A stretch of 44,927 bases of DNA from Fibrobacter sp. (GTDB lineage: Bacteria > Fibrobacterota > Fibrobacteria > Fibrobacterales > Fibrobacteraceae). Of the stretch, positions 2,743 to 25,411 are shown one piece after another; positions within the stretch are counted from its first letter, which is position 1; each line of letters starts with the position of its first letter. The stretch covers positions 1 to 44,927 of the forward strand of contig JAILDK010000089.1 in NCBI GenBank assembly GCA_024689485.1, read 5' to 3'. The position numbers and the translations under genes are program-made. The notes under the pieces are model-generated. The model ran no database searches, was not told the DNA's origin, and saw only the letters and a program-made list of their open reading frames with translations.

Positions 2743-3974
2743 AGGGCGAAGATGCGGTTCACGCGCAAGAGTCCTTCGACGAGCCTGTCGATTTCCCACT
2801 TTTGCGTGTAGGCGCCAAAGCTTGCGCGGATCGTTGCCGGAACGTTAAAGCGTTTCATCACCGGCTGTGCACAGTGATGCCCGCTGCGCACGGCGATTCC
2901 GTCTTCGTCTAAAAGCGTGGCCGCGTCGTGCGGATGTGCGGCGTCCAAAGTAAAGCTCAGCAGGGATCCGCGGTGCTTGGGATTTCCCAAAATGTGCAAG
3001 CCCGGAATTGCCTTCAGTTTTTCTTCCGCGTACTTCAAAATTTCTTGTTCGTGCTGGTAGATCGCTTCGATGCCGACCTGATTGATCCAATCGACAGCGG
3101 CGCCAAGGCCGATGACTTCGGCAATCGGAGGCGTTCCCGCTTCAAAACGGTCGGGCGGCAGGGCAAAGGTCGTCTTTTCGAAGGTGACCTGGTCGATCAT
3201 TTCGCCGCCGCCTTCGAGCGGGGGCATGCTTTCGAGAATTTCGTATTTGCCGTAAAGAACGCCGATGCCCGTGGGGCCGTACATCTTGTGACCGGAGAAG
3301 GCGAGGAAATCGCAGTCCAAATCCTGGACGTCGATTTTTACATGCGGAGCGCTTTGGGCGGCATCGATCAAAATCTTGATGGTCGGGTCGATCTTTCGAA
3401 TGGTCTGGATTATTTCCTTGACCGGATTTTCGGTGCCGACCGTGTTGCTGATGTGGGCAAAAGCGACGATCTTCGTTTTGCCGGGAACGACGAGTTCCGG
3501 GATTTTTTCAAGGATCAGGTCACCGTCATCGGCGACGGGAATCACTTTGAGCTTGGCGCCGCGTTCTTCGGCAATGAGCTGCCACGAGACGATGTTTGCG
3601 TGATGTTCGAGGGCGCTGATGACGATTTCGTCGCCCGCCTTCAAAAACTTTCGGCCATAGCTCCAGGCGCAAAGATTGATGCTCGCCGTGGTGCCGCGCG
3701 TGAAGACGATTTCATTTTCGCTTTTGGCGTTGATGAATTTGGCGACTTTTTTGCGAGCGGATTCGTAAGCGTCTGTCGTTTGTGCGGTCATGGAGTAAAC
3801 GCCGCGTTTGATGGAGCTGTAATGCTTGCGGTAAAAGTTGTCCATCGCGTTGATGACAAATTCCGGCTTTTGTGTAGTCGCCGTACTATCCAGGAACGCA
3901 AACGGTTTGGGATCCTTGTCGTGAAGGGCAAGAACCGGGAATTGCTGACGGATTTCTTCTGCATTGTAGCTCAT
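2739..3974 (-). CDS. sufS: Cysteine desulfurase, SufS-type
   Basis: Class V aminotransferase-fold PLP enzyme of 411 aa that takes sulfur from cysteine as a persulfide for Fe-S cluster assembly. The PLP lysine is Lys230 in FLAFSGHKMYGPTG. The persulfide-forming cysteine is Cys368 in VRSGHHCAQPVM, the group II (SufS) arrangement. ALEHHANIVSW and IDAAQSAPH are also typical. The ATG at 3974 is used; the longer in-frame TTG at 4004 would add a non-homologous MTCYFFIFCG. No sufBCD, sufU or sufE gene is adjacent, so it is a stand-alone gene here. It is divergent from xpt across 57 bases. Confidence 0.9.
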   Translation of the reverse strand: MSYNAEEIRQQFPVLALHDKDPKPFAFLDSTATTQKPEFVINAMDNFYRKHYSSIKRGVYSMTAQTTDAYESARKKVAKFINAKSENEIVFTRGTTASINLCAWSYGRKFLKAGDEIVISALEHHANIVSWQLIAEERGAKLKVIPVADDGDLILEKIPELVVPGKTKIVAFAHISNTVGTENPVKEIIQTIRKIDPTIKILIDAAQSAPHVKIDVQDLDCDFLAFSGHKMYGPTGIGVLYGKYEILESMPPLEGGGEMIDQVTFEKTTFALPPDRFEAGTPPIAEVIGLGAAVDWINQVGIEAIYQHEQEILKYAEEKLKAIPGLHILGNPKHRGSLLSFTLDAAHPHDAATLLDEDGIAVRSGHHCAQPVMKRFNVPATIRASFGAYTQKWEIDRLVEGLLRVNRIFAL

Positions 3975-20619: not shown

Positions 20620-22443
20620 TTAGTCTTCGGAACCCTTGCCTGCATCGGAAAGGGAAAGAACAGCGAGGAACGCCTTCTGAGGAACTTCGACCGTGCCGAT
20701 GCTCTTCATGCGCTTCTTACCTTCCTTCTGCTTTTCGAGAAGCTTTCTCTTACGGGTAATGTCACCGCCATAGCACTTGGCAAGAACGTCCTTGCGAACA
20801 GCCTTGACCGTGCTGCGGCTGATGATCTTTCCGCCGATCGCACCTTGGATGGCGACGTCGAACTGCTGACGAGGAATCAGGTCCTTCAATCGGACGCAGA
20901 TCGCGTTCGCGTAAGTTGCGGACTTGTCGCGGTGAATGATCACCGAGAAGGCGTCCACCGGATCGCCGTTCAACAGAATGTCGAGCTTCACCAGGTTGTT
21001 TGCGCGGTAGCCGTTCGGGGCGTAGTCAAGTCCGCCGTATCCGCGGCTAATGGACTTGAGCTTGTCGTAGAAGTCGAACATGATTTCGGCAAGCGGAAGA
21101 TCGTACTTGAGAATGACCTTCGTTTCGTCGATGTATTCCATGTTTTCGAATTCGCCGCGCTTTTCTTCGCAAAGCTTCATGAGGCCGCCGACGAATTCCT
21201 TCGGCGTAAAGATCTGAGCCTTCACGTAAGGTTCTTCGATGCGTTCGTAACGCGAAGCATCCGGAAGCTTGGACGGGCTCGAAACCTTGATCATTTCACC
21301 GCCCGTCAGATAGACGTGGTATTCCACGTTCGGAACGGTCGTGATGATGTTCACGTTGAATTCACGGTCCAAGCGTTCCTGCACAATTTCCATGTGCAAG
21401 AGTCCGAGGAAGCCCGTGCGGAAGCCGAAGCCGAGGGCGTCGGAAGTTTCCGGTTCCCACTGCAAAGCGGAATCGTTCAGCTTGAGCTTTTCCAAAGCTT
21501 CGCGCAAATTCTTGTAGTCTTCCGGATCGATCGGGTAAATGCCCGAGTAGATCATCGGCTGAATGTCTTTGTAACCAGGTAGCGGTGTATCGGCAGGATC
21601 TGCGGCGTCAGTGATCGTGTCGCCGATTTTCACATCGCTGATCGTTTTCACGTTGGCGAGGACGTAGCCGACCATGCCAGCGGTGAGTTCCTTGCGCGGA
21701 TTGCGCTTCATGGTGAAGGTTCCGACTTCGGTCACGGTGTAAGTGGCGCCGCTTGCCATCAGCTGAATTTCCATGCCCGGACGAAGGGTGCCGTTCATGA
21801 TGCGGATGTCGTTAATCACGCCGCGGTAGGAGTCGTACATCGAGTCGAAGATGAGCGCCTGGAGCTTTGCCTTGTTGTCGCCCTTCGGAGCCGGGATTTC
21901 GTCGACGATGCGGTCGAGAACTTCACCGATGTTGATACCGGTCTTGGCCGAAATGCGAGGAATCTTTTCCGGGTCGTATCCGAGAAGATCGCCGACGAGC
22001 TCTGCCACATGGTCCGGGTTTGCACTGGGCAGGTCCACCTTGTTCAGAACCGGGATAATCGTCAGATCGTTTTCGATCGCGAGGTACAGGTTCGAAAGGG
22101 TTTGAGCCTGGATGCCCTGGGTCGCATCGACGACGAGAACAGCACCTTCACAGGCGGCGAGGGAGCGGCTGACTTCGTAGCTGAAGTCGACGTGCCCCGG
22201 CGTATCGATCATGTTCAGAATGTACTGTTCGCCATTGCGTTCGTAAAGCAAACGGATTGCGTGGGCTTTAATGGTAATGCCACGTTCCCTTTCCAGATCC
22301 ATGTCATCCAGGAGCTGGTTCTGCATATCTTTTTCGGCAACCGTTTTGGTCAATTCGATCAAACGGTCGGCGAGGGTGGATTTGCCGTGGTCAATGTGGG
22401 CGATAATCGAGAAATTGCGGATATTGTCTTCTATTTTGGCCAT
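20620..22443 (-). CDS. lepA: Translation elongation factor 4 (LepA)
   Basis: Translational GTPase of 607 aa, the normal family length. Visible features are [19 protein letters not shown] (G1), [12 protein letters not shown] (G2 region), [13 protein letters not shown] (G3), [11 protein letters not shown] (G4), RISAKTG (G5), the EF-G-like domains, and the LepA-specific C-terminal domain ([21 protein letters not shown]). The ATG at 22443 gives the canonical N-terminus [12 protein letters not shown]. An in-frame open extension to 23283 is an artefact of the opposite gene. It forms an operon with lepB and is divergent from the H1-like gene across only 34 bases. Confidence 0.96.
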
Positions 22444-22451
22444 CGGGCACA

Positions 22452-22469
22452 AATATAGTTTGTTATATT
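22452..22469. promoter_or_regulatory. Mirror-image TATATT elements between lepA and the H1-like gene
   Basis: Within the 34-base spacer 22444-22477, TATATT points right at 22464-22469 and another points left at 22457-22452. Each lies exactly 8 bases from its start codon (22478 and 22443). The hexamers are 6 bases apart, so each promoter's upstream half lies inside the other gene. The left-pointing copy extends to TATATTTG. Neither gene has a Shine-Dalgarno sequence. Confidence 0.55.
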
Positions 22470-22477
22470 TTAGTGAT

Positions 22478-23656
22478 ATGAGCTCAAAAAAACAATTGAC
22501 TAAGAAAAAATCAATTCCTGAAAAAAAGACAGCGAAAAAAGCCGCACCTGAAAAAAAGGTGCAGTCGGTGAAAAAAGGCTCTCCGAAAAAGGCAGCTCCT
22601 GCTAAAAAAGTAGCGACTGTCAAAAAGTCGGCCCCGGCGAAGACCGCTCCGGTCAAAAAGGCTGCTCCTGCGAAAAAGTCTGCCACCAAGGCCGCTCCGA
22701 AGAAAGCCACCGTCGTCAAGAAGGCGACTTCGGTCAAAAAAGCGGCAACCGTAAAAAAGACGGCTTCGGTCAAAAAGGCCGCTCCGCAGACGAAAAAATC
22801 CGCAAAGTCCGCTGTCGAAAAAACAAAAGTTTCAGCGCAAGCATCTTCGACGCCGAAGAAGAATTCCGCCAAGGGAACTCCGGTGAAGACGAAGGGTGCT
22901 GCAAAGCCGAGTAATACGAAAAATTCTAAGAAGAACACGGAGACGAAGGTCAAACCGGTAAAACCGGTTGTCACGAAACCGACGAAGCCTACAAAGCCGG
23001 TGAAACCTGCTGCGCCTGTGAAACCGGTCAAGTCGACGAAGCCCGCTCCGCAGTCGGAAGTCAAGTCGGTAGAAGAAAAGCCGGTCGTGAAACCAGCTCC
23101 GGTGGTAAAGCCGGAAGTGGAAGTCAAGCCGGAACCGGAAGTCGTGGAAGAAGATGCGATTCTTCTTCGCGGCGGAGTCAAGATTACGAAGGTCGCTTTC
23201 TTCTTCGAAGATACCGAACAGGATTCTGCGGCGAAGAAAAAGGTTTCGGGTGCGGAAGCGGTTGAAAAGCCGACTGCCAGCATGCGTCACCGCGCTTCTC
23301 TTGCAGAAGAAACTCCGGAAGAACTTTATGCACGCGTGATTGCAGAACTCCAGGAAGAAAACCTGCGCTTTGCAAAGGAATGCTCCCGTCAGCTTTGCAC
23401 CAAGTGCTGCCGCAATCCGGTGGCTCCGGAATTCCGCGTCGACAAGGATCTCGGTTACTGCGAAGAATGTGCAGAAATCCTTGGCCTTGGAAGCTCGAAG
23501 GAAGCGCGTCATTTGAACTATCAGGCGAAGCTTCTCGGTGCAGATTCCTTGGACGAAGCCCGTGACGATGACGACTTTGAAGGCGCACCGTCTCAGCAGG
23601 AAATTGAAGAAGCTGATGAAGATCTGAACTTGGACGACGATTCCGATCTTCGCTAA
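22478..23656 (+). CDS. Histone H1-like basic protein with zinc-ribbon domain and acidic tail
   Basis: Protein of 392 aa in three parts. Residues 1 to about 220 are a Lys/Ala/Pro-rich, histone H1-like tail with repeated KKAAP, VKKA and KPVKP units. The middle contains an acidic segment, [12 protein letters not shown] and a helix ([20 protein letters not shown]). A C4-type zinc ribbon has Cys307, Cys310, Cys328 and Cys331 (CTKCC...CEEC), reminiscent of the DksA/TraR finger, then a helix and an Asp/Glu-rich tail. The N-terminus suggests DNA or RNA binding. I do not know a named family with this order. A strong terminator follows. Confidence 0.8.
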
Positions 23657-23679: not shown

Positions 23680-23722
23680 AAAGAAAGCCCGCGTGAAATC
23701 ACGCGAGCTTTCTTTTTTTTTT
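23680..23722. terminator. Bidirectional terminator between the H1-like gene and lexA
   Basis: AAAGAAAGC and CGCGTG pair with CACGCG and GCTTTCTTT around an AAAT loop, with one C/A mismatch. It is followed by a run of T on the plus strand and by T-rich DNA on the minus strand, so it can serve both converging genes. Confidence 0.85.
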
Positions 23723-23733
23723 GTTCGGATAAA

Positions 23734-24393
23734 TTAATTGATTTTGCGGAGAACGCCGATGACGCGGCCTGCGATCGAGAACTTGCGGTCTGGGTTGACG
23801 ATGATCGGCTGGTACTTCGGGTTCGCGGCGCGGAGTTCAATGTGGTCCGGCTGCGGCTGATAGTATTTCACAGTCGCTTCGTCGTCGACTTGGGCGATGA
23901 TGATTTCACCGCGTTCTGCAACAGTCTGGGAACGGGCGAAAACGAGGTCACCGTCGAAGATGCCCGCGTTGATCATGGAGTCGCCTTTGACATGGAGCGC
24001 GAAGACGTTCGGCTGGCTCGCGAGGAAGTCGCGGTCAACGGTCACGGTGCCTTCGATGTTCTGCACGGCGAGGATCGGGGTACCGGCTGCGACGCGTCCG
24101 ATGATAGGAACTTCAACCGTATTTTCGGAATTCGGAGTTTCTGCTGGGGCGCTTTGGGCCTTGGCGGATTCGTCCAAAATTTCGATGCCGCGGCTGAGTC
24201 TCGGGGCTCTGCGGATGTAGCCTTTCTTGATCAGGGCAGACAGAATGGAGCGGACTCCGTTCGTCGAAGAGATTCCGAATTTGTCTCCGATTTCGCGGAC
24301 GGTCGGCGGCATCTTTTCCTTTTCGGTGCAGGAGCGGATGTAGTCGTAGATTTCCTTCTGTCGATCGGTTAGCGGTTTTTGCGGCGTATCCAT
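23734..24393 (-). CDS. lexA: LexA repressor
   Basis: SOS repressor-protease of 219 aa. The N-terminal winged helix (1-70) contains [24 protein letters not shown] and [18 protein letters not shown]. The self-cleavage site is Ala103-Gly104 in GRVAAGTP. The catalytic pair is Ser139 (KGDSMI) and Lys176 (EATVKYY). A linker of about 20 residues rich in Ala/Pro/Ser separates the domains. GAGG 8 bases before the ATG serves as ribosome binding site. The promoter has a consensus -35 with operator-like GTGCAC next to the -10, fitting autoregulation. Confidence 0.95.
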
Positions 24394-24712: not shown

Positions 24713-25411
24713 ATGGAATACATCACTCTCGTACTCGCCGTTATCACGGTGATCCTTGGAATCGTTATTCTTTCCAAGGTGAATAAGCTCATCACGATGC
24801 TTCATACTCCGATTGTCAAGCGTGTCTCGGACACCAATCTGAAGCCGAACCGTCATCCGGTTAGCGCTCAGGATATGGCTGCTCGTAACAATGACCGTCG
24901 CGATAATAATCGTAACAACGATCGTCGTGATCGCAACAACAATGCGAATAACAATGGCAATCGCCAGGAACGCAATAACAACCGCGATCGTAACAATGAT
25001 CGCAACGACCGCAATGACCGTCGTAACGATCGCCGCAATGGCCGTAACGAACGTCGTCGTGACTTCGCTGAAAAGACCGCTGAAGCACAGGCTCCGGTGG
25101 TTGAAGCTCAGGCTCCGGCAGCACCGGTCGCACCGGCTCCTGTCGCTGCTCCGGCTCCGGTCGAAGCTCCGGCTGCAGAAGCACCGCGTGCTGAAGCTCC
25201 GCGTGCAGAAGGTCGTCGTCCGCTTCCTCCGCGTGTTCAGGCAACGCTTCCGGAAACTCCGGCAGCTGCTCCGTCCGCTCCTGCTGCTCCGGCTGCAGAA
25301 CCGGAAGCCGTCGGTGCTGAATTCGATCCGTCGAAGGTCCGCTATGGCCGTCGCAACGTGATGAAGAAGCTCCCGGTGGAAGAAGATTCTGCTGAAGAAG
25401 CAAAGGCTTAA
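24713..25411 (+). CDS. Single-pass membrane protein with Asn/Asp/Arg-rich and Ala/Pro-rich disordered regions
   Basis: Protein of 232 aa. The N-terminal membrane helix is within residues 2-21 (YITLVLAVITVILGIVIL). A short basic segment follows, then about 60 residues made almost only of Asn, Asp and Arg (58-116, for example RNNDRRDRNNN). An Ala/Pro/Glu-rich linker (122-200) precedes a conserved-looking C-terminus (FDPSKVRYGRRNVMKKLPVEED). The Arg/Asn-rich part resembles RNA-binding disordered regions such as those of RNase E scaffolds. That is inference; no catalytic domain is present. The orphan gene has its own long leader and terminator. Confidence 0.75.
   Translation: MEYITLVLAVITVILGIVILSKVNKLITMLHTPIVKRVSDTNLKPNRHPVSAQDMAARNNDRRDNNRNNDRRDRNNNANNNGNRQERNNNRDRNNDRNDRNDRRNDRRNGRNERRRDFAEKTAEAQAPVVEAQAPAAPVAPAPVAAPAPVEAPAAEAPRAEAPRAEGRRPLPPRVQATLPETPAAAPSAPAAPAAEPEAVGAEFDPSKVRYGRRNVMKKLPVEEDSAEEAKA

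Follow-up and report, generated by a model that had tools for sequence, protein, structure and literature searches.

The gene and its surroundings

The window analysed here, meaning the whole stretch of 44,927 nucleotides, comes from a 2.5 Mb genome with near relatives named as Fibrobacter sp. and F. intestinalis ATCC 43854, and at 22478–23656 on the forward strand it holds an open reading frame for a protein of 392 amino acids. Relatives of this protein are described through two redundancy-filtered profiles: A1, made from the C-terminal 186 amino acids of 42 members, and A4, which is shorter and made from 44 members. A search with A1 found orthologues in 117 of the 126 genomes from the class Fibrobacteria (phylum Fibrobacterota). 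The frame stays open upstream to 22271, which is merely the antisense of the neighboring gene lepA, and the start at MSSKKQ... is the same in close relatives. This is a genuine gene.

On one side lies lepA (elongation factor 4; 20620–22443, reverse strand), assigned from its sequence and the conserved gene order and transcribed divergently, with 34 bp between the two start codons. A mechanically called lepA frame (20620–23283, reverse strand) runs 280 codons further upstream than the true start near 22443; it is overlong because the antisense of the Lys/Ala/Pro-rich tail described below is open, and it is a trap for annotation. On the other side, lexA (23734–24393, reverse strand), likewise assigned from sequence and conserved order, is convergent, an arrangement shared by many loci of family f1 and by f2, and a terminator-like hairpin with a T run, picked out by pattern scan only, lies 3′ of our gene at 23690–23705 (forward strand). 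Between lexA and murA, positions 24713–25411 (forward strand) encode a protein of 232 amino acids that has a single membrane helix at its N-terminus, repeats rich in Asn, Arg and Asp, and a stretch rich in Ala and Pro; relatives of it lie near lexA in several genera. A promoter-like TATATT box, spotted by eye at 22464–22469 (forward strand), ends 8 nt before the ATG; TATATT stands just 5′ of the ATG in all five relatives compared, and a sigma-70 scan did not report the box. If it is a promoter, its distance from the ATG implies a very short leader.

The position beside lepA had led the initial annotation to propose a ribosome-linked factor, and a role in translation deserves to be weighed, given that families f1, f2 and f3 of the class all retain the lepA-adjacent order, with lepA divergent. 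However, a gene divergent from lepA is not co-transcribed with it, and in loci long enough to show it, a gene for a secreted-type peptidyl-prolyl isomerase stands between the two outside f2 and the window's genus, which is the case in most of the other genera. In g6 and g9, two further genera, our gene is flanked by the isomerase gene and folC, and lepA was not seen in those loci. In addition, ribosomal proteins matched the A4 profile in the Protein Data Bank (PDB) only at E 0.24 or worse. Nothing beyond gene order supports the ribosome link, and we regard it as very improbable.

Architecture and conservation of the protein

The protein begins with a Lys/Ala/Pro-rich tail (residues 1–215; 22478–23122, forward strand, as are all the following parts), recognized by its composition of 63 K, 34 A and 26 P and its net charge of +54. 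The initial annotation had described a histone H1-like tail; the composition and charge agree with that, and yet the basic part is the N-terminus and not a C-terminal tail. It is followed by a conserved box (N-box) of the form LLxxGxKxxKxxFFxEV...KPTxxxR (residues 222–270; 23141–23287), defined from alignment A1, in which F36 and R64 are conserved in at least 90% of the 42 members. A long helix with an acidic EETxEEL start is predicted by AlphaFold2 for residues 280–312 (23315–23413), and it leads into a C4 zinc finger of the pattern C307-x2-C310-x17-C328-x2-C331 (23396–23470). Member alignments then show a conserved ILxLGxSKEAR motif (23477–23509), and the protein closes with an acidic C-terminus (residues 353–392; 23534–23653) in which 18 of 40 residues are D or E and the net charge is −16. 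The combination of basic tail, zinc finger and acidic end noted at the outset is thus real and conserved, and it has no match in the family libraries searched.

Cysteines occur at positions 302, 307, 310, 311, 328 and 331. The finger had been written as CxxCC...CxxC, and four of its cysteines hold: C35, C38, C56 and C59 in A4 numbering are invariant in all 44 members, so that the finger is more than a chance pattern, and the loss of cysteines among orthologues that the initial annotation allowed for was not seen. The fifth, C311, is no ligand candidate, as many relatives have G or N in its place. The spacing between the second and third cysteines is x17 in 43 of 45 loci and x14 in the other two, a count that required Y before the third cysteine; four more loci left out of it have F there and keep all four cysteines. 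N and V after the first cysteine pair are also strongly conserved, as are LGYC before the second pair, A after it and the ILxLGxSKEAR motif. Upstream of the finger, members carry the helix starting with EETxEEL and the N-box with KxxFFxEV and KPTxxxR; the EExxEEL helix start is lost in genus g6.

The two halves of the protein change at different rates. In five comparisons between members of the same genus, the core is 71–97% identical, whereas the tail is 48–72% identical with 25–53 gap columns. A tail that evolves fast and changes in length, joined to a core that is kept, is the pattern to expect if a disordered arm for nucleic-acid binding is attached to a module with a specific interaction. 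Across 42 scored members (the charge table omits five redundant or cut loci and seven others truncated at contig ends), tail length by a crude segmentation ranges from 0 to 283 amino acids, with a median of 177.5. The tail is net positive in 41 of the 42, the exception being a tail-less paralogue (L052), and K, A and P make up a fraction of at least 0.45 in all 35 tails of 50 amino acids or more. The acidic end is net negative in all 42, with a median of −15. Several g6 members have tails of only about 7–40 amino acids by the same crude segmentation, from which it follows that a long arm is not essential everywhere.

Two AlphaFold2 models, made with the window's protein and three close relatives as input, reached mean pLDDT values of 57.6 and 71.3. 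In the modelled piece, the predicted helix (11–43) has successive pLDDT blocks of 91, 93 and 88, then 73 at its finger end, from these four close sequences. Fold searches with Foldseek and VIA-align on the low-confidence models gave no credible match, and neither DksA nor PF02591 was among the matches listed.

Distribution across genomes

By the A1 profile, the protein is present in 117 of 167 genomes of the phylum and in 0 of the 41 that lie outside the class. Several of the nine class genomes that lack it are incomplete. A search with the finger alone gave the same picture, as all 117 genomes with a match were class genomes, and nearly every genome with the gene has one copy. Among 391 genomes reaching beyond the phylum, there were two weak matches outside the class (E 0.004–0.005), neither of them credible. 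One (G171:C4:7256–7423, locus L115, E 0.005) is a match of the finger profile to the zinc knuckle of a methionyl-tRNA synthetase, probably by chance, and the other falls in an unrelated frame. The viral contigs searched gave no match. This is a near-universal, class-specific, single-copy core gene that is unnamed in the libraries searched, and we found no publication on the protein in the open-access literature searched.

Some genomes carry related fingers in other settings. In three f3 genomes, tail-less versions occur in addition to the main copy: two are stand-alone fingers that have the acidic end but lack the basic tail (L096:2785–3027, forward strand, and L097:2788–3036, reverse strand; 81 and 83 amino acids), and the third, also with an acidic end, lies inside a longer open frame (L095, near 2985–3107). 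In one g6 genome, a related finger forms the N-terminus of a 240-amino-acid protein (L098:1758–2477, reverse strand), the remainder of which has no assigned function.

Relationship of the finger to known families

The full protein matched 0 Pfam families by hmmscan at E values up to 10, and thus no model of H1 or of Hc1/Hc2. Scans against Pfam, NCBIfam and PHROG, with the single sequence and member by member, gave no reliable match; the most frequent weak Pfam match was Rpr2, in 10 of 42 A1 members and 14 of 44 A4 members. Since any C4 finger attracts other C4 fingers, profile comparisons with hhalign were judged against 200 decoys per test in which the cysteines were kept and all other columns shuffled. 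Two control families were rejected on this basis: for the ClpX zinc finger (PF06689), 80 of 200 decoys reached the score, and for the FmdB ribbon (PF09723), 45 of 200 did so, which speaks for kinship with neither.

The initial annotation had likened the finger to DksA/TraR. On that reading the protein would be an RNA polymerase secondary-channel regulator tethered to DNA by its H1-like tail, with the acidic helix in the channel and the finger at its mouth. Spacing and marginal matches at first favored membership of this family. TraR has the spacing CxxC-17-CxxC and a DxxDxA motif (PMC9239242), and DksA has two Asp at the tip of its coiled coil; 43 of 45 members have that spacing, and in our protein, too, an acidic helix precedes the finger. 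The DksA-like phrog_54 was the most frequent weak PHROG match (15 of 42 A1 members, best E 0.039; 17 of 44 A4 members, best E 0.0081), and the best PDB match of the A1 profile was a DksA (2kq9, E 0.022). However, hhalign gave only 7% probability against 29 DksA proteins of the class, with a score of 19.4 that was reached by 23 of 200 decoys (35 of 200 in a second test), and on this decoy comparison the membership was rejected. The A4 profile, run against the open frames of the collected loci, DksA loci included, placed 0 DksA proteins among its best 22 non-self matches. Moreover, the DxxDxA motif is absent from the members' sequences compared, where the helix starts with EETxEEL instead, and even that start is the one lost in g6. 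A PF01258 search of the genome left our gene unmatched and found a genuine, separate DksA (G000:C127). Judged by sequence comparison, the finger is not DksA-like beyond its cysteine spacing, and a secondary-channel regulator is an improbable identity for this protein.

True DksA proteins with H1-like tails do exist in the class, which lends the secondary-channel reading some support. Several canonical DksA proteins of families f2 and f3 (L055, L061–L064 and L067) have long K/A/P N-terminal arms, and those of f1 are mostly without them. H1-like arms are therefore not peculiar to our gene and occur on more than one C4-finger protein, an observation that indirectly supports the view of the arm as an add-on module, a putative chromosome tether for transcription-type factors.

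The best affinity we found, though still a weak one, is with the ribbon of CT398, FlgZ (HP0958) and MSMEG_4306 (PF02591), of which the finger is perhaps a remote relative. FlgZ is reported to bind a sigma factor or mRNA, and our protein could be a divergent member of this family in which the H1-like arm has replaced the coiled-coil hairpin and the finger would bind a sigma factor or mRNA in FlgZ-like fashion. The two have in common a C4 finger after a helix and the CxxC...CxxCxxIL pattern. There is also a weak profile similarity, mostly better than that of decoys, whose strength depends on the comparison set: hhalign gave 76% probability (score 30.8, 0 of 200 decoys) with ten in-phylum members chosen by regular expression, 75% (score 28.9, 1 of 200) with 45 proteins together and 61% (score 27.0, 3 of 200) with 30 proteins from other genomes, which are those listed from 200 matching genomes, and yet all 15 in-phylum members gave 20% (score 22.1, 10 of 200). 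In the PDB, the A4 profile matched CT398 (4ilo, E 0.0064) over both helix and finger, ahead of DksA (E 0.061) but behind a LIM domain (2egq, E 0.0022). RpoN was found in all of the 60 genomes compared, in keeping with a sigma-factor role, although a gene found in every genome cannot discriminate. The Pfam model was not among the members' matches listed. Members have x17 or x14 between the cysteine pairs, outside the family's CxxC-x18–26-CxxC as given in the part of the source that treats the spacing (PMC5947703). The antiparallel N-terminal coiled coil of the family is also missing, with the K/A/P tail in its place, and the acidic end is a further addition. Taken together, a divergent member of this family working in the manner of FlgZ is an unlikely identity for our protein. 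As to distribution, PF02591 proteins occur in most other families of the phylum, but among the listed genomes of f1 g10 is the one genus that has them, whereas the H1-tailed protein is confined to the class.

A possible role on the nucleoid

We consider a nucleoid-tethered adaptor the most likely reading, and give it about an even chance of being correct. A disordered, Lys-rich, H1-like N-terminal arm would bind DNA (or RNA) without sequence specificity, and the folded core of N-box, helix and C4 finger, together with the acidic end, would offer a docking site to a protein or an RNA, which most plausibly belongs to the machinery of transcription or of mRNA. It may also be that the acidic end folds back on the basic arm, tuning the arm's binding. 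That the protein binds zinc and DNA, works as a tether, has such a partner and is inhibited by its own acidic end are all steps that we infer from its features. The nucleoid-type role put forward in the initial annotation is in line with this, as the composition of the basic tail makes nucleic-acid binding plausible. What is observed in favor of the adaptor is the architecture and its conservation, the invariant cysteines, and the pairing of a fast tail with a slow core. Against it, the long arm appears dispensable in several g6 members, the finger is modelled with mediocre quality, and no useful match came from the search for similar folds.

Another point against the adaptor is that RNA, polyphosphate and ribosomes are further possible ligands of H1-like tails. 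A scaffold for polyphosphate or RNA condensates, acting as AlgP does on polyphosphate granules, would accommodate the AlgP-like K/A/P-rich tail and the polyampholyte pattern of charge, but the neighboring genes include no pointer to polyphosphate, and we think this role distinctly improbable. A bolder version would make the protein a class-defining chromatin adaptor: a FlgZ/CT398-type ribbon in which an H1-like arm has been acquired and the coiled coil lost, bringing a sigma-factor- or mRNA-binding finger to the nucleoid. It would belong to a wider tendency of the class to equip transcription factors, among them DksA, with H1-like arms. So specific a combination is, in our judgment, rather improbable.

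Comparison with known systems

Nearly the whole of a bacterial class carries this core gene, which is unnamed in the libraries searched and encodes a distinctive combination of domains. The Lys/Ala/Pro-rich tail of the protein resembles histone H1 and bacterial H1-like proteins; the likeness is one of composition only, and H1 and Hc1/Hc2 models give no match. AlgP and PhaF of Pseudomonas share with it a long, disordered, DNA-binding tail rich in K, P and A; in the portion of the AlgP study that deals with it, the spacing of granules depends on the KPAA tail, and peptides of the tail bind DNA (PMC9239181). In those proteins the tail is C-terminal, in contrast to ours, and that portion describes no zinc finger (PMC9239181).

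Another parallel, in manner of working only, is CarD of Myxococcus with its partner CarG, in which a disordered arm with basic and acidic segments is likewise joined to a protein-binding module. As set out in the relevant part of the source, the disordered HMGA-like domain of CarD, both acidic and basic, binds DNA, raises activity and probably places CarD in the nucleoid, and the partners of its folded part are RNA polymerase and CarG (PMC4374960). Unlike our protein, CarD has AT-hooks, and its zinc protein CarG is a separate one; judged by the Pfam scans, which report no profile match, the folded domain is not shared. If the adaptor on chromatin proves true, bacteria would offer a second independent example, CarD being the first, in which an arm of the H1/HMGA type is fused to a module for interaction, and the H1-like arms on DksA suggest that holding transcription factors on the chromosome may be a general use of these arms in the class.
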